From positions 1-37,576 of IMG/VR virus record IMGVR_UViG_3300005529_000070: a DNA stretch of 37,576 bases. One strand, given 5' to 3'. The notes below the pieces were generated by a model. That model made no database searches, was not told where the DNA came from, and saw only the letters and a list, made by a program, of their open reading frames with translations. This document shows, one piece after another, positions 2,837 to 23,393 of this stretch. Within the stretch, counting starts at the first letter, position 1; each line of letters starts with the position of its first letter. The position numbers and the translations under genes are program-made. Source of the DNA: a virus.

Positions 2837-3268
2837 TCAAAATGGAAACCTCAAACCAAATCCAATAACCGACCGTTTCCCATCTGTACCCCCTACTAAG
2901 TCAATGGCGTAGTCTTTCTGCTCATAGGAGGCAGTTGGTAGAGGAAGGAAGATGGTTCTCTTCGAGTAACCCGTAAGCCCCACAAGCCCAGTTCCGAAGC
3001 ACATCGGGCCCAATCTGAGGCCGCACCACACGACTCCAGCGACTTTGGTCTCTCTACATAGGCTGTTCTTGTAGAACCCAGCCATGAGCCTTGTATTGGG
3101 TGTGAGGGAGTAGTTCAAAGCGAGGCCAGGATTGACCTCGCAGTAACCCGATTCGGAGTGTTTTGAAGCTCCGAATACAGATAGAGATAATTGAGCATGC
3201 GAATTCCAGCCAATCGCGATACAGAGTCCTAAAAGAACTCCGGCCGCGAAAATGACTGGGTTACGCAT
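2837..3268 (-). CDS. Secreted small beta-barrel-like outer-membrane protein
   Basis: A 143-residue protein with a clear Sec signal peptide (MRN, hydrophobic core 4-22, then NSHAQ), followed by alternating aromatic/aliphatic segments and a final Phe (GFGLRFPF), the classic C-terminal signature of outer-membrane beta-barrels. Short Cys-containing strands (NSLCRETK, WCGLRLGPMCF) recur. The start chosen, ATG 3268, has GAGAGGG upstream and overlaps the preceding stop by eight bases; an in-frame start 54 bases earlier would spoil the signal peptide. It may alter the host surface or block reinfection; a role in lysis is less likely. Size allows about eight strands. Confidence 0.65.
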   Translation of the reverse strand: MRNPVIFAAGVLLGLCIAIGWNSHAQLSLSVFGASKHSESGYCEVNPGLALNYSLTPNTRLMAGFYKNSLCRETKVAGVVWCGLRLGPMCFGTGLVGLTGYSKRTIFLPLPTASYEQKDYAIDLVGGTDGKRSVIGFGLRFPF

Positions 3269-3653
3269 CGCCCTCTCTCTTAAACTGCTGAATCGGTATG
3301 TCGCCGTGGCCGAGGCCATCAACTACTAGACAGACCGCACCCTGCTCTTTGAAAACCTTGTGGCAGGCTTCGTATTTGGCGCCCTTATATTCCACCGTAG
3401 CCGCTTGGTATTGGTCTGGCTCTTCGCCGAGCTCGACAATCAGCGCCTTCGCGACGGCGTTGACACATGGAGCGCTGAGCAGGCGGATGGTCGTGAATTC
3501 GTCCCGATATACGGGCGCTCCGGCATAAGCCCAGCGCATCGCGCCGGCGAGAGCTAAACCAAGAATGACCGCCAGCCAGGAATATGGAAAGAGGGTCAGT
3601 CGTTCGTGTTTTGAATCTACAGAAAGCCCGTTGAAATATTCTTTTTCGCTCAT
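3261..3653 (-). CDS. Single-span membrane protein, large periplasmic domain
   Basis: A 130-residue protein with a charged N-terminus, one transmembrane helix (about 22-45) and a periplasmic domain with two Cys (63 and 97 region) that could form a disulfide. It overlaps the neighbouring small membrane gene by ATGA. It could be an inner-membrane spanin or an exclusion protein given its place among membrane proteins next to lysis genes, but there is no coiled-coil typical of Rz, so I leave the function open. Confidence 0.65.
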   Translation of the reverse strand: MSEKEYFNGLSVDSKHERLTLFPYSWLAVILGLALAGAMRWAYAGAPVYRDEFTTIRLLSAPCVNAVAKALIVELGEEPDQYQAATVEYKGAKYEACHKVFKEQGAVCLVVDGLGHGDIPIQQFKREGDA

Positions 3654-10450: not shown

Positions 10451-11894
10451 GTCCTGACTCCACCCACTCAGGACTGAAGCCAGCCATTTCCCAGTCCCCG
10501 GTGAAGTTCATCTGTAACCTATGCCAACGGGCGTCTCTCAACATGTCGAAAGACCCGGCACTCGAGAGAGACACAAGAGAGTCTGCAGTCAGCATATCCC
10601 CCGTATTCAGACGATAGGAGTTCTGTGCTGTAGCAGTCGTCGGCGCTGTCAGGAATCTAGGTCTCACCCTCGTCAACGTACTGAATTGGGTATCGTCTCC
10701 GTAGTCTCCGGTAATCAGGTAAGAGCTTGTAGAAGGAGCGGTTAATACTTGGAGAACGTGAGAGCTATTAAAGACTGCGGGTCTCGTCTGTGACGACCCG
10801 ATAAACGCCGAGTCGTATGAAAGGTTCGGAAGACTGTCGTAAGTCGTGTAAAGAGATCCTAACCCGTCATACGTTACAGATGGGGCTGCAAAATCTGTCG
10901 CAGCTTCGATCTGCCTATCGTCAACTCCCCACTTGTCTACCTTGTAGTTATAAACGACGCATTGATTTGGGAGAGCGGAGTCAATGGTCGGGTAGTAGAA
11001 ATAAACCAGACCGTTCTTCTTGTCGTGAAGGGCTTTGCAGGCGTAGTACCTATTTTGCTGTAAAGCTGCAAAGACAGATTGAGCTACCCTGTTCTGCCCA
11101 ATCCTCGCTGGTTTCGACCCGTCGTAAACCCAAAAGTCATCTTCTCCCATGAAGATGTGTCTCGGGTTCTCGGGCGTCCCGATTGAGACTACAGCCTCCT
11201 GGCTCATCGCTCCAGCGGTTCCGGGGATGAGAGCGAATTTCCAAATGTTCGGGGGGCCTTCATTGATCCCCAGATACATCGAATTCTTCTTGTAGACGAC
11301 TATCGCGTCCCCGAATCTTTTCCCTGCTGTAATCGGTCCTGAAGTAGTAGTTAGTAAGTCATTCCCAGCCTGAGAAGCTACCGAGGCTGTCCAGTTGGTG
11401 TAATCGTTTAGTGCCGACCACTGGACACCGTGAGCGTTAGCAGAGGTGTTTAGAGCAAAGACGAACTTCCCGACCGTTTCGACAATCGCCGCTACCGGAC
11501 CTCCGGCGATACAGGAAAAGGCTCCAGTCGAAACTGAGGCCTGCATCGTATCTGCCCCATTAGCCGCTAGAGAGACGTTTCCCTGCTGTGCAAACCTCCA
11601 GATACCAGTGGTGCTGGTACTGTAGGTCGCAGCCCTGCTGACATCGCTCCAGGTCGAGGACCCTGCTTCGTAAATCTTCTGCGGAGTCCCGGCGAAGAGT
11701 CTATTGGTAGCGTCCAGCTTGGTTAAAAGAGCCGCCCCAACACAAGTCGCTGCCAGAGTCGCCATTCCAGAGCTTGCAGGCCATGGAGCGGCTTTCATCC
11801 CCTTTAAAGACGGAACGACTCCAAGAGCGTTGGTAATGACTCCGGGGATCGTGGGGTCGGCATCCGGTGCGTACCCCAAAAGCTCGACGATCAT
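10443..11894 (-). CDS. P22 gp10-like tail hub / DNA stabilisation protein
   Basis: A 483-residue beta-rich protein, close to the P22 gp10 length of about 470. The N-terminal region ends in a repeated beta pattern (LFAGTPQKIYEAGSSTW, FVFALNTS), there is a conserved-looking stretch with IVVYKKNSMYLG, FMGEDDFWVYDG and VYNYKVDKW, and the C-terminus is beta-rich. Role: binds below the portal/adaptor, closes the tail channel and keeps DNA in. It overlaps the adaptor stop by ATGA, which supports a head-tail joining role. Call is by eye and by synteny. Confidence 0.7.
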   Translation of the reverse strand: MIVELLGYAPDADPTIPGVITNALGVVPSLKGMKAAPWPASSGMATLAATCVGAALLTKLDATNRLFAGTPQKIYEAGSSTWSDVSRAATYSTSTTGIWRFAQQGNVSLAANGADTMQASVSTGAFSCIAGGPVAAIVETVGKFVFALNTSANAHGVQWSALNDYTNWTASVASQAGNDLLTTTSGPITAGKRFGDAIVVYKKNSMYLGINEGPPNIWKFALIPGTAGAMSQEAVVSIGTPENPRHIFMGEDDFWVYDGSKPARIGQNRVAQSVFAALQQNRYYACKALHDKKNGLVYFYYPTIDSALPNQCVVYNYKVDKWGVDDRQIEAATDFAAPSVTYDGLGSLYTTYDSLPNLSYDSAFIGSSQTRPAVFNSSHVLQVLTAPSTSSYLITGDYGDDTQFSTLTRVRPRFLTAPTTATAQNSYRLNTGDMLTADSLVSLSSAGSFDMLRDARWHRLQMNFTGDWEMAGFSPEWVESGLE

Positions 11895-12505
11895 CCCGTG
11901 GTAATAGAGAGAGGTTGCGCACCGGAAAGAAACTCATCGTCGTTTTCCTTTTGAATCAAGGTAAACAACTGAGAGAACTTTCCTTCCCAGATCGGGATTC
12001 TTTTGTCGTCTTTTAAATAAGGAGCGGCTTCTAAAAGAGCTCCGTACAACCAAAGACCCGGATAGGTCGTGAAGACGCTGTTTGTAGAAGTCGAGAGGGA
12101 CGGAAACCGGTTGTAATAAACAAGTTGAACCGTGTAATTCGTATCTGGGTAGGGTCCGAAGATAAAGTTCGACCCTTCTCGCGCGATATATTTCGGTGTG
12201 TTATCCGAAGCCCGATATGGATACTTCTCATAGATCCACTCAGCGCTCTTACGATCAAGATTCGTATAGGGAGTAGTCGAGCTGATATAGGAGTCTTTGA
12301 GCTCGATGTAGTTCGCGGGAACGGCAATGGTTCCCGAGGCTATGGTGGATGCCATTGCGGTTTCCATAGCCCTGTGTCTCAGATCGTTGTTGATCCTGTT
12401 ATCGGCCAATGTAATGAAATCAGCAATGGCCGAAGTAAGATCAGCGCGGTGCAGAAAGTCAGCTACACTTGACTTTAAGCCGTTGTAGGTTCCGTCTAAA
12501 GCCAT
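11891..12505 (-). CDS. SU10-type head-tail adaptor
   Basis: A 204-residue protein with the features of phage adaptors that join the portal to the tail: an N-terminal helical segment (VADFLHRADLTSAIADFITLADNRINNDLRHRAME split over residues 14-48), a beta strand preceded by PANYIELKDSY, then helices near GALLEAAPYLKDD. This is the pattern of SU10-like/P22 gp4-like adaptors. GGAG lies seven bases before the ATG within an A-rich leader. It follows the DegT aminotransferase, overlapping its end by 47 bases. Confidence 0.75.
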   Translation of the reverse strand: MALDGTYNGLKSSVADFLHRADLTSAIADFITLADNRINNDLRHRAMETAMASTIASGTIAVPANYIELKDSYISSTTPYTNLDRKSAEWIYEKYPYRASDNTPKYIAREGSNFIFGPYPDTNYTVQLVYYNRFPSLSTSTNSVFTTYPGLWLYGALLEAAPYLKDDKRIPIWEGKFSQLFTLIQKENDDEFLSGAQPLSITTG

Positions 12506-13487
12506 CGACCAGCTCCGTTATTTTTGTTAGTTGGTCTGGTGTAACGTGCGGCCCGGTCGGAAGCGCCAGATGATTCATCCAGATTTCTTCCGACACTTTG
12601 TATTTACCTTTGCCATACACACGAAACGCAGGAGACAGGTGTAGAGGCGTGAAGATCGGCCTCGTGTCTACTCCGTGTACCTTTAAGTGCCTTGCGAGTC
12701 CTTGAGGGTCTTCTGTCTCAGCGCAGAACAGCCATTTCCCTTTTCCCGGCAGGCTTTCTGAAAATCTCTTAGCATTAGCGAGACGCGCTCCGAGCAGTTC
12801 GTCAAAGCGCTCGAGCTGGGCAAGACCGACAGCGGCTTGCATGTTGGAAAGTCTGTAATTGAGCCCTGGTACGATATTTCGGTAGTCTGAGTCGAAACCA
12901 CCGTCCCGCCACTCTTTAGCGTTACCGTAATCACCGCAGAGCATCCCTCCTTCGCCTGTGGTAATTGGCTTATTTCCGTAAAACGAGAAGCAAGCCATCT
13001 TTCCGCGGATCGGTACCATGCCGATTGCTTCGCAGGAGTCCTCAATTACTGGTATCCCAAACTGCGTGAAAGCACCTGCATCCTCTCCATAGAGATGGGT
13101 GACCATGATGGCTCTGGTGCGCCGTGTAAGAACTCCGAAGAGCCGGTTTCGATCCAGTCCCCAAGTCTCCCGGTGAACGTCAACGAGTATCGGTTTCGCT
13201 CCCACTGCGAGTACGACGGAAGCGGTAGCTCCGAAAGTAAGGTCTGGAACCACGACCTCATCCCCCGGCCCGATCCCGAGAGAAAGTAGGGCAAGGTGGA
13301 GCGCACCTGTGCCACTAGAGGTCGCAAGACTGGGAACTCCGAATTTCTGACTGAAGGCTTTCTCAAACTCTCCCTCGAATCGTCCGGCGTGGGTTACATA
13401 TCCTGTCTGGATGCACTCGGTTAAATACTTGAGCTCATTCCCCTCGAGGCTCGGCCTCGCCAAAGGGATCAGCGATGATTCCGTCAC
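12459..13487 (-). CDS. DegT/DnrJ/EryC1/StrS sugar aminotransferase
   Basis: A 342-residue PLP enzyme of the family that transfers an amino group to nucleotide-linked keto-sugars. Motifs: SSGTGALHLAL (58-68, phosphate binding), IEDSCEA (148-154, Asp to PLP nitrogen), and FSFYGNKPITTGEGG (167-181) with catalytic Lys173. The length is slightly short of the usual 370 but all key residues are present. The start is GTG. It implies that an amino-sugar is made for use by the neighbouring glycosyltransferases, although no nucleotide-sugar dehydratase is present, so host precursors must be used. Confidence 0.9.
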   Translation of the reverse strand: MTESSLIPLARPSLEGNELKYLTECIQTGYVTHAGRFEGEFEKAFSQKFGVPSLATSSGTGALHLALLSLGIGPGDEVVVPDLTFGATASVVLAVGAKPILVDVHRETWGLDRNRLFGVLTRRTRAIMVTHLYGEDAGAFTQFGIPVIEDSCEAIGMVPIRGKMACFSFYGNKPITTGEGGMLCGDYGNAKEWRDGGFDSDYRNIVPGLNYRLSNMQAAVGLAQLERFDELLGARLANAKRFSESLPGKGKWLFCAETEDPQGLARHLKVHGVDTRPIFTPLHLSPAFRVYGKGKYKVSEEIWMNHLALPTGPHVTPDQLTKITELVDGFRRNLQRLKVKCS

Positions 13488-13511
13488 TTATAAATGCCAG
13501 TAGAAGCTGGT

Positions 13512-14330
13512 CTAGGCCCTCATAAGGTGACGCCAGGCGTGTCCTTCTCTCATCTCCGCCGGGGTCCATTGTGTCCAAGCAAGGTTCGCTGCCCACTGCT
13601 TTCTGTCCGGGCACTTTGGTTCCTCTAAGTCTGAAAGGCTTTTATTGGCTAGATCCCAAACCATAGAGCCTTCGTCAAAAGCAAATACAGGTTTGCCGTA
13701 GATCAAAGCCTCCACCGCTGAATTGCTGTTGAATGTCACTACACAGTGAGCATCCTTCAGGTCTTCAAGAAGTGGCGCTTTGGAGTAACCACATCCCCTG
13801 ATTGGGTCTATCGGTGCTAAAGGATGAGGTCTGAAGACCACCGGCCTGTTGGTTATAACGGCTAGCCTTTGGGCCGTCTCCTGACACCAGACAACGTGGT
13901 AACTACCTTCCACGCTTGCATCCCAGGGAACCTGACCACAGAGGATGATCTTATTCCCCGGAGAGTAGGGCCTCATCTGGGTTTTCAGCTTCTCCCAGCG
14001 CTCAGGCCCCATGCTCTTGTTACGGAAGTCTGCTCTTCCGTTCAACCCATTAAAGCCGGCAGCATAGTGGTGATGTTCCCCGTCACCCCGGTTGACGTAA
14101 CCCGTCTCTAGAACGATTACATCCAGGTTTTTTTCCCTCTGCTGCCGAAAGACTTTTCCTCGAGGCCAGGATTTCCTGACCTTGGATTTATAGACCCCGA
14201 AGATGACTGCTATATCTGAAGGTTCGTATTGGAATCCCTCGATCAGTTTCTTTTCTTCCGGGATTCCGTCATAGAAAGCTTTTAATACTCGGTCGTGGAC
14301 CGGATCGCCGCTTAGATATACGTTAATCAT
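13512..14330 (-). CDS. Capsule-biosynthesis-type / GT-B-like protein
   Basis: A 272-residue protein resembling capsular polysaccharide export/transferase proteins of the KpsC/KpsS kind. Motifs: FRPHPLAP (166-173) and FNSNSAVEALIYGKPVFAFDEGS (200-222), the latter being the C-terminal nucleotide-sugar loop of GT-B folds. It overlaps the upstream methyltransferase by ATGA and is part of the glycan island. Whether it transfers Kdo or another sugar cannot be read from the sequence. Confidence 0.7.
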   Translation of the reverse strand: MINVYLSGDPVHDRVLKAFYDGIPEEKKLIEGFQYEPSDIAVIFGVYKSKVRKSWPRGKVFRQQREKNLDVIVLETGYVNRGDGEHHHYAAGFNGLNGRADFRNKSMGPERWEKLKTQMRPYSPGNKIILCGQVPWDASVEGSYHVVWCQETAQRLAVITNRPVVFRPHPLAPIDPIRGCGYSKAPLLEDLKDAHCVVTFNSNSAVEALIYGKPVFAFDEGSMVWDLANKSLSDLEEPKCPDRKQWAANLAWTQWTPAEMREGHAWRHLMRA

Positions 14331-14902
14331 TCGGCGATGACAATCAAAAACATCCCATCACTGCCGGCGTGGATAGCGCCTCCCTTGTCTTTCTGGCAAA
14401 AGCGTTCGGTTACTCGGAACCCGCAACTTTTAAGTAAGCCGTCGAACTCGTTCGGTCTGTAATGCCTGAAGTGCGGGCTGTCGTCTCTCTCGAAATGCTT
14501 CGCTAGAAACGGGTATCTTTCTTCGTTCGGGACTGAGGCTATTAACGTCCCGATGCACGCTTTCCTGAACGCTTGGAGCGCTGGCTTCGGGTCTTGGAGG
14601 TGCTCGATTGTCTCCAGGGAGACGACCGTCTCAAAACGTCCGTTCCAAGGCTCATCCTCGATTCGTCCCTGAATAAAACACGGCCCCTGGAAATGTTCCT
14701 CCGCCCAGTGAATCGCTTGAGCGCTCTGGTCAATGCCCACAACCAACTGCGCATTCTCAAGAAGAAGTTTCGAGCCATATCCGCACCCGCAGGCAGCATC
14801 TAGAACCCTCCCGCTCGCATACTTGGCTGCGAGCTCGTAGCGTCTAACGTGATCCGGCCTCGCCCCTCTTACCGTCTTAGTCCATTGTCGGCTGGCGTCC
14901 AC
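14327..14902 (-). CDS. Class I SAM methyltransferase
   Basis: A 191-residue methyltransferase with motif I VLDAACGCGYGS (33-44), an acidic ribose-binding motif VVGIDQS (54-60) and SLETIEHL (95-102) typical of the small-molecule (Methyltransf_11/23) subgroup. A C-terminal substrate region contains HFRHYRPNEF. GTG starts directly after the glycosyltransferase stop (TAG-GTG). Likely methylates a sugar or lipid-linked sugar in the island's pathway. Confidence 0.85.
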   Translation of the reverse strand: MDASRQWTKTVRGARPDHVRRYELAAKYASGRVLDAACGCGYGSKLLLENAQLVVGIDQSAQAIHWAEEHFQGPCFIQGRIEDEPWNGRFETVVSLETIEHLQDPKPALQAFRKACIGTLIASVPNEERYPFLAKHFERDDSPHFRHYRPNEFDGLLKSCGFRVTERFCQKDKGGAIHAGSDGMFLIVIAE

Positions 14903-15595
14903 CTACTTTGCGATTAAGTCGCCCTCTCTGAGTTGTCTTGTTTCTTTCCTGTCACCCTTAAAGTGGTGCATCACCGTGCCGGGCAGGGAATTCTCAAAGG
15001 GATGCATCGTGCCTTTAGGAACATGCTTCGCGAGGTTCACGAACTCGCCTTCATATCCATCTTTGGACGCCATGTATCTGATGGCGTCAAAGGCTATGCA
15101 GTCGTGCCACCACTGCTGTGTGAAGATAGTCCCAACAATGAAGACATGGACGTAATCTCTTAGGAATCTTTTCGCTATTGGGTGATTCGCGTTAAACCCG
15201 ATAAATCCTGACTCGGTGAAGTACCACCCGTCTCGACCTAAATAACAATTGAACTTGTCATCCGGGAGACACGTATCTAGGAAACTCTCGGGGACGTGCT
15301 TATAAGTCTCCGAGTCGGCGTCCATCCAAAAGACCTTCCCCCCGTACTGTCTGCAGGCGTGAACCTGCATGAAGGTTTTTCTTCCCATCCTTGCGTCGAA
15401 GTTAATGTCGTAATTTGAACCAACGACTCCGTGCATAATCGGAAAGCGCAGGCTGGATAAGTAGTCCTGCAGAAACTCGACTTCCTCAATCGGCCTCCAG
15501 GAAATACCCGGAAGCATCTCGAAAGCCGAATCGTCTCCCTCGTAGTAGACGGTCAATCTAATGCTTGGGGGCCAGAACTTCAGCCACGACTCCAC
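14903..15595 (-). CDS. GT-A-type glycosyltransferase, N-terminus upstream of start
   Basis: The frame from the first canonical codon (GTG 15595) gives 230 residues with the metal/nucleotide motif FWMDADS (89-95) and a conserved-looking C-terminal region. But coherent sequence continues upstream in the same open frame: KLPNVITSFSASG and YQKYGKRFVESW precede the GTG and form the first beta strand and helix of a GT-A fold. That frame is open back to a TAA at 15731-15733 with no ATG, GTG or TTG. A TGATG overlap on the preceding stop is followed at once by TAA in that frame, so a 2-base insertion may have broken the start, or a near-cognate codon (ATC 15685 or CTG 15709) is used. Confidence 0.75.
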   Translation of the reverse strand: MESWLKFWPPSIRLTVYYEGDDSAFEMLPGISWRPIEEVEFLQDYLSSLRFPIMHGVVGSNYDINFDARMGRKTFMQVHACRQYGGKVFWMDADSETYKHVPESFLDTCLPDDKFNCYLGRDGWYFTESGFIGFNANHPIAKRFLRDYVHVFIVGTIFTQQWWHDCIAFDAIRYMASKDGYEGEFVNLAKHVPKGTMHPFENSLPGTVMHHFKGDRKETRQLREGDLIAK

Positions 15596-15692
15596 GAAGC
15601 GCTTTCCATACTTCTGGTACCCGGAAGCAGAAAAGCTCGTGATGACGTTCGGGAGTTTCTTCGGAGGCTTCTTCGCTTGTTCGATACTTACA

Positions 15693-17060
15693 TCACCGAC
15701 GATGAGCAGGCCACTTCTCCTGTAAGGCAGTTAGCATTGGAATGATCGGCCACTGTTTGTTTTTCTGGCGCCAGAGCTTCACGGAGCTAGCCCAAGGGAA
15801 AGACTCGCCTTCAGCAAGGTGTCTCCACATAGGCATTTCTGGAACCAGGCACCAGCATTCCTTACCAATGGCTCCAGCCGCGTCTACTACAGCGGTCGTC
15901 ACGCTCACCACGATGTCTAACTGAGAAAGCAATGCAATCGTCTGGTCATAGTCCCAGAAACGGCTGCCCCATTCCCAGTCATGGATCTTCACGCCGTACT
16001 TTTCTTCCGCTCCTTTAACCCCGTCGGCGTCTTTGTATTGAAGACTCACCCATTGGGCATCAATACCCTTGAACAAGGGAGCAAAGGTATCCAGGGTCAC
16101 AGAACGCCTGTAGGTCCCGGTCTTTGGGATACCACCTGTCCACGCTATTCCTATCTTTGGCTTCTTCTCATTGAGAAGCACTCCCCATTGGGCTGACATA
16201 TCGGGTCGTGGGATGAGATAGGGCTTCCCGTGAAAGTCAGAGTCTTTATTCCTATAGAACTTTGGTAACTCTCCCAAAGCCACTCGAGCGTCGAACGACT
16301 GACTGTGCGCCCAGGTCCTGGCCTCTTCAGGTTTGTACCTGGTTCCGTACACCATAGCCGTCGGGAAAGACCTCTGGAAGAGAGGCGCTAGTCTCTTATC
16401 AACCTCCAGAGTCACCGTCTTGCAGTCGCGGATCAGGTCGGGCAGACAGGAAGCGAAGGAAATCTCGTCGCCCAAACCCTGTTCTCCGTAACACACGACG
16501 TTAAGACCTTTGGTGCCGTCCCATCGGGACTCGTTGCCGTACTTCATCTCCTTCCGGTTCTTCTCGGTCCCCAGATTGGCCTGGTAGTCCCTCCAGCCTT
16601 CTCGCCACCTTCTTGTGGCTAGATAGGCCATTCCCCTGTTGACTCTCGCATCCACCAGTTCGGGATTTTCGGCAAGAGCTCTATTGGATAGAGCAATACA
16701 TTGCTCGAAGTCACCACGGTGAAGGGCTGACATCGACAGTCCCTCAAGAGCATTCGGAAAGTCCGGTTTTAGCTTTACCGCTTTCCTGAAGTGCTCATCC
16801 GCCAGCTCATCTTTCTGCACTTCATGGAAGCATTTCCCCATGTTGTGCCAGGCAGCGGCGTTAATAGGTCTTATATCCGCCGATCGCTTGATGATGTTGT
16901 AGGCGAGCCCGTAGGAGCCCTCCTGCATCAAGGCGTATCCAAGCATGAAGAGGGCTTCACCGTCGTCGAAGTCCTCATCCAACCTTTTGAAGAGTCTTTT
17001 AGCTGCCTCGGGGTAGTTTTTTTCGTCTAGGTATTTTTTTGCTTCTTTTAAGAGGCTAAT
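15693..17060 (-). CDS. TPR-domain glycosyltransferase (GT41/GT9-like), ATT start
   Basis: A protein of about 455 residues if started at ATT 17060 (429 from TTG 16982). The first 165 residues form TPR-like helical pairs; then comes a GT-B-type catalytic part with YGEQGLGDEISFASCLPDL (split around residue 193), PKIGIAWTGG and a C-terminal VSVTTAVVDAAGAIG loop, as in bacterial O-GlcNAc-transferase-like enzymes. ATT is chosen because GGAGGG lies four bases upstream and the added residues LLKEAKKYLDEKNYPEAAKRL complete the first TPR helix; TTG 16982 would cut it. Likely glycosylates protein or lipid-linked acceptors. Confidence 0.8.
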   Translation of the reverse strand: MSLLKEAKKYLDEKNYPEAAKRLFKRLDEDFDDGEALFMLGYALMQEGSYGLAYNIIKRSADIRPINAAAWHNMGKCFHEVQKDELADEHFRKAVKLKPDFPNALEGLSMSALHRGDFEQCIALSNRALAENPELVDARVNRGMAYLATRRWREGWRDYQANLGTEKNRKEMKYGNESRWDGTKGLNVVCYGEQGLGDEISFASCLPDLIRDCKTVTLEVDKRLAPLFQRSFPTAMVYGTRYKPEEARTWAHSQSFDARVALGELPKFYRNKDSDFHGKPYLIPRPDMSAQWGVLLNEKKPKIGIAWTGGIPKTGTYRRSVTLDTFAPLFKGIDAQWVSLQYKDADGVKGAEEKYGVKIHDWEWGSRFWDYDQTIALLSQLDIVVSVTTAVVDAAGAIGKECWCLVPEMPMWRHLAEGESFPWASSVKLWRQKNKQWPIIPMLTALQEKWPAHRR

Positions 17061-17070
17061 TCAGCCCTCC

Positions 17071-17466
17071 CTATCCGTCAGAAAGCGTGTCTCTCCATCC
17101 GGCAATTGAAACCTTTTGGGTTACGGAAGCGAGCGGCGTCCCGAAATCGACAACCAGGGGGACGCCCTTCTTGCCCATGAGGTTCACAACCCAAGTATCC
17201 TGAACCGATACACCCAGCGCCGCGATGATGTCCCAACTCGCGACCACGGTGCCGCCGATAGAGGCGTGGCGGACGTTCAGGGTGGACGTATACGCAGCAG
17301 CAGCGGCATTTCGCTCTGACCAGCCCAACTGGGTCATGTGGATTCTCTCCTTGGCCGCAGGCGTGGGAGAGCTCACCGCGAGAGTCGTACCAGAGGCCGT
17401 TGTGTTATTGGCGCTCCAGTTGTTCCCCAGTGAGTCAATGATTAATGCCTTATCGCGGAAAGCCAT
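17071..17466 (-). CDS. Small beta-rich virion-like protein
   Basis: A 131-residue beta-rich protein (ALIIDSLGNN, AVSSPTPAAKERI, VASWDIIAALGVS, WVVNLMGKKGVPLVVDFG). No family is recognised. Composition resembles capsid decoration or small tail proteins; it is embedded in the glycan island but probably belongs to the virion. A GGGGC lies ahead of ATG 17466, two bases past the preceding stop. Confidence 0.65.
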   Translation of the reverse strand: MAFRDKALIIDSLGNNWSANNTTASGTTLAVSSPTPAAKERIHMTQLGWSERNAAAAAYTSTLNVRHASIGGTVVASWDIIAALGVSVQDTWVVNLMGKKGVPLVVDFGTPLASVTQKVSIAGWRDTLSDG

Positions 17467-17467
17467 A

Positions 17468-17809
17468 TCAGCCCCAGTGCATTTTTGAAGTTGTTTTTAG
17501 GTAACGATACTCAGGCTGGTTTAAGAGCCTGTAGACCGCTTTCTCGTGATCCTTGTTATAGACATCTACCCCGTACTCGTTCAGCCACTTCTCGATCACG
17601 ATATTGGGGATCGTGGCGTACTTCCACCAACTATCCTTAATCCCGTCCTTCGTGAATTGATCGTCATTCTGTAAGACTTTATTGGCGTCCAGAATCAGAC
17701 CAACATCATGCTGCTCTCTATGGACAACAGTCGTGTCAGTCTCGGGGACGTAATCGACGCTGGTTGTGATCCCGGTTAAGGGGTCGTATTCAAGAAGTCT
17801 TTTCGACAT
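17468..17809 (-). CDS. Conserved phage protein (YDPLTG motif)
   Basis: A 113-residue protein starting MSKRLLEYDPLTGITT and containing GIKDSWWKYATIPN and EYGVDVYNKDHEKAVYRLLNQPEYRYLKTT. This pattern is familiar from uncharacterised phage proteins found in structural or neck regions. I start at ATG 17809; an in-frame TTG at 17815 is less likely. It overlaps the oxygenase end by 20 bases. Function unknown. Confidence 0.7.
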   Translation of the reverse strand: MSKRLLEYDPLTGITTSVDYVPETDTTVVHREQHDVGLILDANKVLQNDDQFTKDGIKDSWWKYATIPNIVIEKWLNEYGVDVYNKDHEKAVYRLLNQPEYRYLKTTSKMHWG

Positions 17810-18599
17810 ATCCAAACGGGTTATTGATTCTTATGGACCCGTGCATAGAGACTCTATGGGTCGGTTTCCTAGTGTCTCCTCGTCGGTGAAAACCGTAGAC
17901 ATTCGCTACAACTAAAGTATCCGCCTCTACGGTCACAGGCTCGGGTGTGTACTCGAGCTCATGTAATTCCTCCGGGCTTATCCGGAAGCTTCCCTCTCTA
18001 TGCCCAGGCCCCCTCCACTCCTCAGCCGCTCCGCGCTTTAGGTCTTTTACCCTGTCGGCGTGCCACTGAATCAGTCTTTCAGTAAGCACCGGAGACTTTG
18101 GCACATACCAGAACGGCCCCTCGTCCAGACTCACTGAATGCGGGAAGTACCAGAACTTCACGCAAGGGAAAAACGTATCGCTGTGGAAGACTTTTTGCTC
18201 ATCGCCATCTTCGGGCAGGTTGTACAAATGTTGTAGATACGAATTCCCGACAAACAGGTTCTGTGCTTCTCCCCGAGCAACTGGCTGGAAAAGGGGCGCA
18301 ATGACGTTCCATATCGGCGTCATCGCATGAGCAGCAAGGCTATTAGGATGGCTTCCAATCCTGGACTCGTTGCTCTGCCCATCCTTGATGGCGCTTTTCT
18401 CGGCCTGGGCTTTTATTTCTCCCGCTACTGCCTTCCCCAAAAAATTCTCTATTCGAATCATCCCGGAGTTCAATAACTCAGAGGGAGTCATATACGACCC
18501 GGCTACCCTGTGGGCCTCGATCATCCTTGGGACATGAATATCCAAAAGCTCGGGCTGTAGGTCATATCTTTTGTTTTTCCCGAACCTCGCGAAACTCAC
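17790..18599 (-). CDS. Phytanoyl-CoA-dioxygenase-like Fe(II)/2OG oxygenase
   Basis: A 269-residue oxygenase of the PhyH type. Iron ligands: H139 and D141 in VFHSDTF and a distal H238 in YGFHRRGD, with R249 (THRVS) a likely 2-oxoglutarate anchor; GPFWYVPKSP (161-170) is the typical intervening strand. The substrate is unknown; in this context it may hydroxylate a sugar, lipid or virion component, or a nucleobase. GTG 18599 overlaps the methyltransferase stop (GTGA). An in-frame GTG 15 bases earlier is also possible. Confidence 0.8.
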   Translation of the reverse strand: MSFARFGKNKRYDLQPELLDIHVPRMIEAHRVAGSYMTPSELLNSGMIRIENFLGKAVAGEIKAQAEKSAIKDGQSNESRIGSHPNSLAAHAMTPIWNVIAPLFQPVARGEAQNLFVGNSYLQHLYNLPEDGDEQKVFHSDTFFPCVKFWYFPHSVSLDEGPFWYVPKSPVLTERLIQWHADRVKDLKRGAAEEWRGPGHREGSFRISPEELHELEYTPEPVTVEADTLVVANVYGFHRRGDTRKPTHRVSMHGSIRINNPFGYVEKTS

Positions 18600-19138
18600 A
18601 ACCTGAAACTCCACACGGGGTAAAACTTCCCGTCGGTAAATTTCTCTCCTTGGTGAACATCTGGCTTAGGAAATACCTCGTTCACGGCTCTCATAAGGCC
18701 TTGGTATGCCGCCGAATAGTCGTGCCCGCAGATCAACCCCCCGACCATGATCTTCGGCCTCCAGGCAGCAATATCCTTTCTTACAGAATCGTAATCATGC
18801 TTGGCATCGATAAACACGAAGTCCAGGCTTTTATCTTCGTAGAGCTTCGCCGCCTCCCACGAGAGAGACGCATGGAGCTTGCCAATCGTTTTCCCCATCA
18901 GAGGCCCAAGATTGGAGAGCGCCTGACCATCTCCGTTCTTGATATCCACACCGTCTACAACGCACTGAGCGCCAGCATTGATGAGCTCGACCCCCAGATA
19001 TGCGAGAGACTGCCCGTGTAACGTCCCCAGTTCTACGCCTCTAGTCGCGCGCTTCTTGGCGGCTAGTTCTTTGGCGAGGTCTGCATAAAATTCAGGCCAT
19101 GTGAAACAGCCGTCTATGCTTTTGTAGAAGTGCTCCAT
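18596..19138 (-). CDS. TylF/Methyltransf_24-type methyltransferase
   Basis: A 180-residue SAM methyltransferase of the kind used in sugar and natural-product O-methylation. Motifs: VELGTLHGQS (35-44, SAM loop), VDGVDI (61-66), FIDAKHDYDSVRKDI (109-123) with a metal-binding Asp, and GHDY (138-141). ATG 19138 is used because the frame upstream passes through the capsid terminator; GGAAG precedes it by three bases. First gene of the glycan island. Confidence 0.85.
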   Translation of the reverse strand: MEHFYKSIDGCFTWPEFYADLAKELAAKKRATRGVELGTLHGQSLAYLGVELINAGAQCVVDGVDIKNGDGQALSNLGPLMGKTIGKLHASLSWEAAKLYEDKSLDFVFIDAKHDYDSVRKDIAAWRPKIMVGGLICGHDYSAAYQGLMRAVNEVFPKPDVHQGEKFTDGKFYPVWSFRL

Positions 19139-19151
19139 ATCTTCCAAACTG

Positions 19152-19185
19152 GATAAGAAAACGGGAGGGGGTTTGCCCCTCCCGT
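19152..19185 (-). terminator. Strong terminator after major capsid gene
   Basis: On the leftward strand ACGGGAGGGG, loop CAAAC, CCCCTCCCGT make a perfect 10-bp stem followed by TTTCTT. It begins 8 bases past the capsid stop and separates high-level capsid expression from the glycan island. Confidence 0.9.
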
Positions 19186-19192
19186 CCATACG

Positions 19193-20167
19193 TTACGACG
19201 TGGCGAGGTCCGTGACCTTGCCTGAAGCAGCTTCGTTTCGACTTACCAGCGTGTATTCCGCGAGGATCATGCGCTGGATGTTGTCACCCGTCACCGCCAA
19301 CTGAACGGACTGGAAGGGTCGGAGATAAGCCACCGCCCAGTAGTTCATATCGAGAACGCTGATAGTTCTGTCTCGATTGAAACGGCTTGGAATGACCTTC
19401 AACGTCCCGAAGTCGCTGACATACGCATCCGCCGCAGCGACGATCTTTGCTTGACCGCCGGCCTGCTGGAAGATGTTGTTGGTCAGAATCCCAGAGAAGC
19501 CCGAGACTTTCACTTTGTTGTAAGGGCCAACAAGGATCGTGTCCGGGTTTCCACCAGCGTTCCACGCCGCGCGGATGATTGCCTTAACCGCAGCTTCCGT
19601 CACGGTCGCCACAGCCGAGTTGTCAACCGGCGCGGTGGTGCCCGTACCAGTGACGAAACCAACCGTCGCCGGAGAACCACCCGACCCGAGAGTCGTGTTG
19701 TTGGACGAGAGCCACGACTCGAGAGACGCCGACACACGAGCGGTCGCCGTGGTGCCCGCCACAAAACCGTTGTTCTGGCTGAGGGCAGACTCCATGTCCC
19801 GCTTCATCTGCAGGCCGTACTTGACGATCTGGAAGGCCATCTCGTTCGCACGACCAGCGGTGTTTACAGCTTGCGCCGTACCCGATACCTGGAATGCGTA
19901 CTGCGCGATTTCGCAGTAGTTGAACACTCGGGTCGTCGGGTTGACCGCCGTGTTCGACGGGTTGTTGCCTTCAACCGCCTGGTTGGTTGCGACGGCAGAC
20001 GGAATCTTGTCGATCTGCCACTCATGTTTCGTATTGCGCGCGGTCTCCCGAGCGGTGGCGTTAAGAAAGGGCGTTTCCGTTGGACTAATGCGATAAATCA
20101 TGTCCGTGAGGTCTTCACGGATACCAATTTGCTGGTACGTTGCGTACGTACCTACAGGGTTAGCCAT
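19193..20167 (-). CDS. Major capsid protein, SU10 type
   Basis: A 324-residue capsid protein of the SU10 MCP family (HK97 fold). Recognised from the N-terminal IREDLTDMIYRISPTETPF, the EWQIDK loop, QYAFQVSGTAQAV, and the C-terminal ILVGPYNKVKVSGFSG and VSDFGTLKVIPSRF followed by YWAVAYLRPFQSVQLA. CGGAGG precedes the ATG inside a long A-rich leader, consistent with high expression. It follows the scaffold gene and is closed off by a strong terminator. Confidence 0.9.
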   Translation of the reverse strand: MANPVGTYATYQQIGIREDLTDMIYRISPTETPFLNATARETARNTKHEWQIDKIPSAVATNQAVEGNNPSNTAVNPTTRVFNYCEIAQYAFQVSGTAQAVNTAGRANEMAFQIVKYGLQMKRDMESALSQNNGFVAGTTATARVSASLESWLSSNNTTLGSGGSPATVGFVTGTGTTAPVDNSAVATVTEAAVKAIIRAAWNAGGNPDTILVGPYNKVKVSGFSGILTNNIFQQAGGQAKIVAAADAYVSDFGTLKVIPSRFNRDRTISVLDMNYWAVAYLRPFQSVQLAVTGDNIQRMILAEYTLVSRNEAASGKVTDLATS

Positions 20168-21955: not shown

Positions 21956-22407
21956 TACAGTCCAAGCAGAAGCACCTCTATATCTTCTTCGTCATCACTT
22001 TCATTCAGGAAGTCGTAGATCGGCATTAGGTCTACGGCTGTCAGTTCGATTTCCCGTCTTAGCTCTGAAGCTCGCTCTCTCAGAGAGTCAAGGTTGGCCA
22101 GAACCCCTAAAGGAACCTTCTGGACCGAGACCTTCTTCTCTACGGTCTCGATTTTCTTTTCGATCTTCTTGAGCTTTGTCTGATCCCTCTTTAACTTGAG
22201 CTCAAGCTTTACTTTTTCGACTTCCGCTTCTTTGGGAGACTTCCAGGCGAGGAAGGTGATTAACCCGCCCGCCCCTCCTCTTGCTGCCGGAGGCGGAATT
22301 ACGACCGCAGCCGCCCCGTTCCCATAACCCAGAGTTACTAAGTGGTTCTGATCTCCTATGAAAACCCCAAGCCCGTTGGTGACTACTGCACCAGCGGACC
22401 CGATCAT
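21955..22407 (-). CDS. Beta-start, coiled-coil structural protein
   Basis: A 150-residue protein. The N-terminus is a repetitive Gly/Val/Ala region (GSAGAVVTNGLGVFIGDQN, PPPAARGGAGGLITFLAW), the middle a Lys/Glu coiled coil (about 57-120), the end acidic (ESDDEEDIE). It starts inside the end of the repeat-fibre gene (ATGA), suggesting joint assembly with it. Confidence 0.6.
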   Translation of the reverse strand: MIGSAGAVVTNGLGVFIGDQNHLVTLGYGNGAAAVVIPPPAARGGAGGLITFLAWKSPKEAEVEKVKLELKLKRDQTKLKKIEKKIETVEKKVSVQKVPLGVLANLDSLRERASELRREIELTAVDLMPIYDFLNESDDEEDIEVLLLGL

Positions 22408-23393
22408 GTCGCTCTACTTACGCTCGACGGAGTAGTGCTATCCAGGGTTAGGGTTGTAGCTACAGCCGAGTGATCCAGTTTCTTAATGGTCATGGTTACA
22501 CCGGAGACTGTTTTCTCGGTGTGATGACCCAACAGTTCGTAAAGGATCTGAGCAGGGGTCCCAGCAGCCCCATTGGCCCTGTAGGACTCGGAGATGGTGC
22601 TTACGAAGTCTCCAGTCGTCCCGCCGACGTTTCCGACCACTGAACCAACAGACCCGCCCACGTTTCCGGTGACGCTCGAGGCTAGAACGCTTGCAAGGAC
22701 TGACCCAACGGAACCGCCGACATTGCCAATGACCGAAGCGACCGAGCCGCCCACGTTCCCTACAACGCTTCCGACCGACCCGCCGACGTTACCGGTAACA
22801 CTGTTAGCCAGAACCGAAGTCGCGACGGAGTTAACCGAACCCCCGACGTTACCCACGACACTTCCGACTGAGCCTCCGACGTTCCCGGAGACTGAGGCTA
22901 CCGAACCACCGACATTCCCAGTGACGCTCCCGACAGCTCCCCCGACGTTTCCAACCACCGATCCTACGGAGCCGCCGACGTTACCTGTTACAGACCCCAC
23001 CGCCCCGCCGACATTTCCAGTCACTGAGGAAACAGTGATGTCTAACTGAACCTCTTTCATCGCAGGCGCCACGCTAAGAGTCGTGGTGTTGGCGTAGAGG
23101 GTCAGGATTACGGTGTCTACACCAGCGGCGGTTGAGTAAGCCGCGTCCGGAACGTCTACTCTGTAAAGGCCTGGTGCGCCTGTTCCATCTACCTCGATAG
23201 CCCCGCCGCTCGACCACGCGACTGAAGTGTTAGAAAGGGCCGAGCAGTTGGTGGTGACGTTTCCTTGTCTAGTTCTGGTGTAACCAATCAATAGCTGATT
23301 GATAGTTACACCAGTTTTAGCCGTCCCCGCCGTTTTCTCAACGAGGTTGAAATACTCAGTCCTGCTGGTAGTGCCTGACTTGACTGAGCTCAT
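22404..23393 (-). CDS. Fibre-like protein with 11-residue GNVGG repeats
   Basis: A 329-residue protein. The first 120 residues form a beta-rich attachment domain (GVTINQLLIGYTR, GLYRVDVPDAAY). Residues 123-261 comprise eleven copies of an 11-residue repeat SVxGNVGGxVx, broken twice by 9-residue units (SVATSVLAN and SVLASVLAS). Such Gly-Asn-Val repeats likely fold as a trimeric beta-fibre. A short C-terminal knob follows (EILYELLGHHTE and LTLDSTTPS region). Probably a head- or neck-attached fibre, given its place among head genes. Confidence 0.75.
   Translation of the reverse strand: MSSVKSGTTSRTEYFNLVEKTAGTAKTGVTINQLLIGYTRTRQGNVTTNCSALSNTSVAWSSGGAIEVDGTGAPGLYRVDVPDAAYSTAAGVDTVILTLYANTTTLSVAPAMKEVQLDITVSSVTGNVGGAVGSVTGNVGGSVGSVVGNVGGAVGSVTGNVGGSVASVSGNVGGSVGSVVGNVGGSVNSVATSVLANSVTGNVGGSVGSVVGNVGGSVASVIGNVGGSVGSVLASVLASSVTGNVGGSVGSVVGNVGGTTGDFVSTISESYRANGAAGTPAQILYELLGHHTEKTVSGVTMTIKKLDHSAVATTLTLDSTTPSSVSRAT
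22611..23027 (-). repeat. Eleven tandem 33-bp coding repeats
   Basis: Encodes residues 123-261 of the fibre-like protein: units of SV-x-GNVGG-x-V-x, with two 27-bp interruptions after the sixth and ninth units. Synonymous positions vary between units, so the array is old or selected at protein level. Confidence 0.9.

Follow-up and report, generated by a model that had tools for sequence, protein, structure and literature searches.

A putative glycosylation cassette in the head module of an uncultivated podophage

Analysis of the uncultivated virus record IMGVR_UViG_3300005529_000070, which was read over its whole length of 37,576 bases (hereafter the window), revealed that the interval between the genes for the major capsid protein (MCP) and the adaptor is filled by nine intact, open minus-strand genes that are tightly packed or overlapping, seven of which encode enzymes of glycan-modifying type (Table 1). 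In the order of transcription these are a Methyltransf_24 methyltransferase, a PhyH-like oxygenase, the small proteins p3982 and p131, a glycosyltransferase with tetratricopeptide repeats (TPR-GT), a glycosyltransferase of GT-A fold (GT-A), a methyltransferase of the Methyltransf_23 family (MT23), a glycosyltransferase of GT-B fold (GT-B) and a DegT sugar aminotransferase. An island with two methyltransferases, a DegT protein, TPR repeats, small phage genes and an adaptor border had been proposed from the bare sequence (the original prediction), and family scans together with AlphaFold folds of GT-A and GT-B bore out this gene list. The 'capsid terminator' that had been placed at its upstream edge is not there, as only 3 nt separate the MCP stop from the next gene and the scan revealed no terminator-like sites at the junction. 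Promoter-like sites were fewer than in shuffled sequences, and the family scan recognised the scaffold and MCP genes upstream. The island contained no strongly hydrophobic segments or multi-span membrane proteins, its Pfam scan returned no membrane glycosyltransferase or flippase match, including the GtrA flippase and membrane glycosyltransferase GtrB of Gtr-type O-antigen conversion, and a scan with a defence-system library gave nothing relevant.

From scans with the MCP and TPR-GT, a non-redundant set of 82 phages with this type of MCP was obtained, in all of which MCP, p3982 and adaptor are visible. In 62 of the 82, TPR-GT separates p3982 from the adaptor, a share that is inflated since the positives were partly found via TPR-GT itself; at loci found via the MCP alone it was present in 16 and absent from 12. 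Where it is missing (20 phages), p3982 sits close to the adaptor with a median gap of 6 nt. On an MCP tree covering 81 of these phages, one branch (support 100/98) parts TPR-GT-positive from TPR-GT-negative phages, with a single label change observed compared to about 18 in shuffles, and evolutionary distances of TPR-GT correlate with those of the MCP (r 0.66) much as those of p3982 (0.69) and the adaptor (0.60) do. What follows TPR-GT varies: in most phages it is another type of GT-A (working label GT8, a label only), in others GT-B alone, the full gene core described below or no profiled family, and L055, L129 and L132 have little room beyond TPR-GT. Because TPR-GT is fixed in place and tracks the MCP while the genes after it vary, we concluded from this comparison that it behaves as a head-module gene and that the remaining enzymes are swappable cargo. 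In the 20 TPR-GT-less phages, the slot held no member of any profiled cargo family.

TPR_2 and other Pfam matches place TPR repeats in the N-terminal part of TPR-GT, and a conserved GEQGxGDE-type domain occupies its C-terminal part. A search of a public phage collection with the window protein returned only MW202512, MW202713 and one Rhizobium phage of another family, and no cultured member of the TPR-GT branch was found in that collection, while a plasmid search gave many distant Azospirillum relatives in neighbourhoods without clear function. In relatives that lack the cassette, the MCP-adaptor slot can hold an SGNH hydrolase, which has been detected in phiM5 particles, or a lone putative glycosyltransferase (MW202711), as seen at L046 7728-9038 and L049 9338-9967. 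The MCPs of cassette phages have in common a loop motif, GF.SG..AP.DNS, at about residues 165-190, which is absent from the cassette-less relatives compared; it may reflect ancestry only, the groups being separate branches, and is still a place to look for a glycan. The Ser/Thr content of the MCP was considered as a sign of glycosylation and gave no clear signal (17.6-21.7% with the cassette, 13.6-20.6% without). No detectable relation was found between p131 and the small post-MCP genes of cassette-less phages.

In the window, TPR-GT opens a five-gene core in the order TPR-GT, GT-A, MT23, GT-B and DegT. In sister phage L002, the closest relative found (84% identity in the MCP), the five genes keep their place and order; a NUDIX gene is added, and PhyH and Methyltransf_24 are missing. 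Alignment scans with GT-B, GT-A and DegT detected the same core in roughly a dozen more contigs (L009, L011, L012, L024, L025/L026, L029, L032, L034, L215 and fragments), in which it precedes the adaptor wherever the latter is visible; exceptions are L058, with a different core order, and L034, with another methyltransferase instead of MT23. All strong matches of the DegT scan (>340 bits) either belong to a cassette or stand right before the adaptor at the end of a contig, and only weaker ones occur elsewhere. As the five genes recur together, nearly always in the same order, a chance grouping is excluded. The search for the set in related phages that had originally been proposed does recover its core, and in the MCP tree a single branch sets apart the phages that lack the set.

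The Manatee Spring podophage MW202713 and its near-twin L013 carry the five core genes in the same order directly before TerL. Their MCP belongs to PHROG 1357 (1328 for the window) and neither MCP nor portal aligns with that of the window, yet GT-A, GT-B and DegT are 52-54% identical to the window's proteins, and this comparison indicates that the cassette has moved between phage lineages as a unit. Trees of GT-B and GT-A do not resolve its first owner lineage. A looser version, consisting of TPR-GT, a methyltransferase annotated as FkbM and a glycosyltransferase, occupies the MCP-adaptor slot of MW202512. Between MW202713 and L013 the ratio of amino-acid-changing to silent substitution rates (dN/dS) is 0 to about 0.1 for all five core genes, and since amino-acid changes are so much rarer than silent ones, the genes are evidently kept functional. 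Broken frames across several members, which had been named as counter-evidence to the island, were not seen: every frame is open, and in this close pair purifying selection acts on the core. Larger cassettes in L009 (6021-6971, 10732-11475) and L012 (8079-9495) include a radical-SAM/SPASM protein, a cytidylyltransferase-cupin fusion, an HAD phosphatase and a nucleotidyltransferase, which suggests other activated sugars there.

Neither GT-B nor GT-A has a Pfam match, and both were assigned from AlphaFold models. The GT-B model, built with 20 sequences, has a predicted local distance difference test score (pLDDT) of 93, and its top structural matches are the retaining transferases of β-linked 3-deoxy-D-manno-oct-2-ulosonic acid (Kdo) KpsC (Z 15.2; root-mean-square deviation 3.4 with 236 residues aligned), WbbB (Z 13.6) and KrkA (Z 11.0), whereas the best unrelated GT-B structure reached Z 10.2 at 8 Å deviation. 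Retaining Kdo transferases share a QxxxD motif with a nucleophilic Asp and an HP motif that binds cytidine monophosphate (CMP) (PMC12887879, PMC9587256). Both have counterparts in the phage protein (Table 1), and profile alignment sets its GQVPWDAS onto GQVESDAS of KpsC. E75, conserved in 15 of 16 sequences (Asp in L002), and R81 may, by inference, serve as the catalytic base and its Arg. Compared to KpsC (GT107), WbbB (GT99) and KrkA (GT140), with which it shares the fold over its whole length, QxxxD and (K/R)xHP, the phage-encoded GT-B is shorter and of very low sequence similarity (KpsC profile match E 0.0038), and probably forms a family of its own apart from GT99, GT107 and GT140. The pseudaminic acid (Pse) transferase KpsS1 has the same architecture and shows that relatives can use Pse (PMC12887879), so that the donor may be CMP-Kdo or a similar CMP-ulosonate. 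In bacterial genomes GT-B was found in one contig only, from a Planctomycetales metagenome-assembled genome, so that at this search sensitivity it is not a common bacterial gene. In other phage contigs distant relatives form tandem copies accompanied by a relative of GT-A, and such relatives are also present in Pelagibacter phage Mosig and in Caulobacter phage CcrSC, where the gene directly follows the tail fibre genes and adjoins an FkbM methyltransferase (L016-L023; L039 7710-11334; L040 7074-10968).

The GT-A model (pLDDT 90) adopts a GT8/GT6-like retaining fold, for which the structural matches are tied between glycogenin (Z 14.1), the PBCV-1 capsid glycosyltransferase 2p72 (13.5), LARGE1 and others, and no single family stands out in the Foldseek and VIA lists. 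Chloroviruses glycosylate their capsids with virus-encoded enzymes. The resemblance to PBCV-1, in which virus enzymes build the capsid glycan and whose enzyme 2p72 fits the GT-A model about as well as any solved structure, concerns a eukaryotic virus and, being tied with glycogenin and LARGE1, speaks for a common fold, not for kinship. The PhyH-like protein shows an HxD and a distal His/Arg stretch, while its Pfam match is below threshold; no relatives were found in phage records, no close ones in viral contigs and no solved one, and the oxygenase is apparently unique to this phage among the records compared. The enzymes listed in the original prediction are real genes, and what is conserved is the five-gene core, to which PhyH and Methyltransf_24 are, judged by their distribution, additions of this phage. 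The combination with PhyH, which had been singled out as unusual, turned out to be the least conserved part of the set.

For DegT, a profile search of the PDB gave GDP-perosamine synthase as the best match (3bn1/3dr7, 305 bits), followed by an unnamed enzyme (266), WbpE (188) and ArnB (180). The phage protein shares with this enzyme (PerA, also of the DegT family) the lysine that binds pyridoxal phosphate (PLP), neighbouring motifs and, in relatives, a dehydratase partner, although it is about 30 residues shorter. The window itself has no GDP-mannose 4,6-dehydratase gene, as had been noted before; the L010 cassette carries one between GT-B and DegT (PF16363 3.6e-131), and in about ten other phage contigs with related DegT genes one lies close upstream, several times directly adjacent. 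NUDIX genes occupy the GT-B/DegT slot in L002 and L035, the former scoring best, below the cut-off, on GDP-mannose mannosyl hydrolase. The perosamine-synthase match and these dehydratase and NUDIX neighbours point to GDP-4-keto-6-deoxymannose as the likely substrate of DegT, which in the case of the window would be supplied by the host.

The standard gene call cuts TPR-GT and GT-A short, both of which probably begin further upstream at non-canonical codons, as judged by homology and Shine-Dalgarno sequences. For TPR-GT the most likely start is ATT 17060, as its first TPR helix lies upstream of the sole canonical start (TTG 16982) and its relatives start with ATG, TTG, ATA or CTG near this position, and for GT-A it is CTG 15709, where L002 has GTG and L024 has ATG. 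A frameshift fusion of p131 and TPR-GT was rejected owing to an in-frame TGA, the codon just before ATT 17060. The ATA start of TPR-GT in L002 (about 11780) and its CTG start in L027 (about 6570) follow an in-frame stop or a Shine-Dalgarno sequence. Such non-canonical starts might hold expression of the cassette below that of the capsid genes.

Table 1 Features of the MCP-adaptor interval of the window, with the evidence for each assignment.
Feature	Coordinates	Strand	Evidence and remarks
Major capsid protein (MCP)	19193..20167	-	phrog_1328 major head protein 1e-86; left-hand context in transcription order
Methyltransf_24 methyltransferase, accessory	18596..19189	-	PF13578 4.4e-14; missing in sister phage L002
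PhyH-like Fe/2-oxoglutarate oxygenase (weak assignment), accessory	17790..18614	-	PF05721 E 0.011, sub-cut-off
p3982, small conserved phage protein	17468..17815	-	phrog_3982 1.7e-13; position between MCP and TPR-GT or adaptor kept in 82 phages
p131, small Ala/Ser/Thr-rich protein	17071..17466	-	tblastn; 19.8% Ser+Thr; some relatives only (L002, L012, L027)
Shine-Dalgarno GGAGGG of TPR-GT	17065..17070	-	sequence
TPR-GT, core gene 1	15693..17060	-	TPR_2 1.8e-11; N-terminal TPR repeats, C-terminal glycosyltransferase-like domain
Shine-Dalgarno AGGAG of GT-A	15717..15721	-	sequence
GT-A, core gene 2	14903..15709	-	AlphaFold model; GT8/GT6-like retaining fold
DxD motif of GT-A	15314..15322	-	invariant in 14 sequences
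MT23, S-adenosylmethionine (SAM) methyltransferase, core gene 3	14327..14902	-	PF13489 (Methyltransf_23) 3.4e-13
GT-B, retaining Kdo-transferase fold, core gene 4	13512..14330	-	AlphaFold model
QxxxD motif (Q133-D137) of GT-B, predicted nucleophile Asp137	13920..13934	-	Q133, D137 invariant in 16 sequences
RxHP motif (R167-P170) of GT-B, predicted CMP-binding	13821..13832	-	R167, H169, P170 invariant in 16 sequences; fits (K/R)XHP of PMC12887879
DegT sugar aminotransferase, core gene 5	12459..13487	-	PF01041 4.9e-70; nearest GDP-perosamine synthase
PLP-binding Lys173 codon of DegT	12969..12971	-	invariant in 12 sequences
Adaptor, right-hand border	11891..12505	-	SU10_adaptor 6.2e-27; 47-nt overlap with DegT

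Weighing these observations together, we regard it as reasonably probable that the island is a cassette with which the phage glycosylates a protein of its own virion in the cytoplasm. The model for TPR-GT is FlmG of Caulobacter crescentus, which modifies flagellins in the cytoplasm and whose TPR part alone binds them (PMC7591256). FlmG joins an N-terminal TPR part and a C-terminal GT-B-type part in one soluble protein and acts beside sugar-synthesis genes, with flagellin as acceptor and pseudaminic acid as sugar (PMC7591256). TPR-GT, a phage head-module gene with a putative protein acceptor, is likened to it by a two-part build of TPR repeats and a glycosyltransferase-like domain. In the scheme we propose, a freshly synthesised structural protein of the late phase, either the MCP or another head or tail protein, would bind to the TPR repeats of TPR-GT and receive a first sugar from the enzyme, as flagellin does from FlmG. 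GT-A and the retaining Kdo-transferase-like GT-B would then lengthen the glycan, the latter through a covalent Asp137 intermediate and with CMP-Kdo, which nearly all Gram-negative hosts produce, or a similar CMP-ulosonate of such a host as donor. DegT would aminate host GDP-4-keto-6-deoxymannose to a GDP-perosamine-like sugar, with some relatives supplying their own GDP-mannose 4,6-dehydratase, and the methyltransferases and the PhyH oxygenase would trim the glycan. Of this scheme, the genes and their conservation, the pattern on the MCP tree, the folds and the catalytic motifs are observed, whereas the substrates, the sequence of the steps and the choice of the virion as acceptor are inferred. 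The idea of a late glycan-modification island drawing on host nucleotide sugars fits the evidence, and of the two targets first considered for it, the virion is better supported than the host surface: TPR-GT has a fixed place beside the MCP and is inherited with the structural genes, the enzymes appear soluble, and no lipid-carrier transferase or flippase was recognised.

That the cassette instead remodels the host envelope, altering the O-chain or core of lipopolysaccharide (LPS) late in infection and thereby blocking superinfection or the binding of progeny to debris, appears unlikely to us, although several observations speak for it. The Kdo-type transferase and the perosamine-type sugar would then act on LPS, and KpsC, WbbB and the GDP-perosamine enzymes are all bacterial surface-polysaccharide enzymes; moreover, similar glycosyltransferase clusters of pelagimyophages have been read as modifying the host O-chain (PMC7029224). 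The window also holds a possible host-surface gene at 2837-3322 (minus strand), whose product resembles phrog_3600, annotated as the lipid A acylation protein PagP (8e-8), and could act on lipid A, with no solved relative found by sequence. Against this reading stand the apparently soluble enzymes of the island, the TPR docking domain, which would be expected for a protein acceptor, and the fixed head-module place and co-inheritance of TPR-GT with structural genes, which would be unusual for a superinfection gene. Besides the pelagimyophage precedent, several points count against the scheme that we propose: sequence searches gave no solved relative for the catalytic domain of TPR-GT, the scores of DegT stay below every NCBIfam equivalog cut-off, and p131 is not universal among cassette phages and was rejected as a constant acceptor, being missing in L009, L011 and L034.

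A division of labour, in which TPR-GT alone modifies a virion protein and the cargo merely uses an insertion hotspot to act on the host surface or on nucleotide-sugar pools, would agree with the wide variation of the cargo, with the few phages that have room for little besides TPR-GT and with a slot that accepts other genes such as the SGNH hydrolase of phiM5 particles. We nevertheless consider it improbable, given that the profiled cargo families are confined to slots with TPR-GT among the phages compared and that the core of five genes has travelled together. Decoration of phage DNA by the glycosyltransferases and the oxygenase has a precedent in virus glycosyltransferases acting on DNA, at least as cited in PMC12619734. 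It is very hard to credit here: the scanned genes of the window included no thymidylate-synthase-like, hydroxymethylase or base-kinase gene, no evident role would fall to the TPR domain, DegT or the Kdo-transferase-like enzyme, and the cassette lies in the head module. We favour modification of a virion protein by the whole cassette.

Elsewhere in the window, a tandem repeat with a period of 33 nt (11 residues) was observed at 22698-23025, within an unassigned open reading frame (22404-23393) of the portal-scaffold interval, where L002 holds an unrelated-looking frame of 824 amino acids.

Virion glycosylation is known from mycobacteriophages, in which phage-encoded glycosyltransferases reportedly act on capsid or tail proteins (Freeman et al. 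2023, cited in PMC12619734), and to our knowledge no TPR docking enzyme or Kdo-type transferase has been reported for that process. The window resembles it in having phage-encoded glycosyltransferases, while the enzymes differ as far as known and the acceptor in the window is putative. The pelagimyophage host-recognition clusters likewise belong to uncultivated phages and bring several glycosyltransferases together in a late or tail region, but they lie beside the tail fibres of large myophages and no fixed TPR-GT next to the MCP has been described for them (PMC7029224). A search of open-licence papers found none that deals with Kdo transferases of phages or with TPR glycosyltransferases encoded in the head module of podophages. 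Three aspects seem to be new: that a large branch of uncultivated podophages keeps TPR-GT as a fixed gene of the head module, that a glycan cassette of five genes able to move between phages follows it, and that phage proteins bear the retaining-Kdo-transferase signature. We put forward more tentatively the wider proposal that capsid O-glycosylation in the cytoplasm by a TPR-docking glycosyltransferase is a fixed vertical trait of this branch, with interchangeable glycan genes, among which would be the first phage-encoded retaining transferases of ulosonate (Kdo) type with a virion protein as acceptor.

If this is true, a whole environmental branch of podophages would sugar-coat its particles as a routine step in building the head, and relatives would exchange the coat chemistry in the form of a cassette, with consequences for host range, the lifetime of particles and recognition in nature. 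The genes would also represent a compact, soluble toolkit for protein glycosylation and would mean that phages, too, have a family of retaining Kdo-type transferases, and the one-branch pattern makes the role of glycosylation for a tailed phage particle testable.

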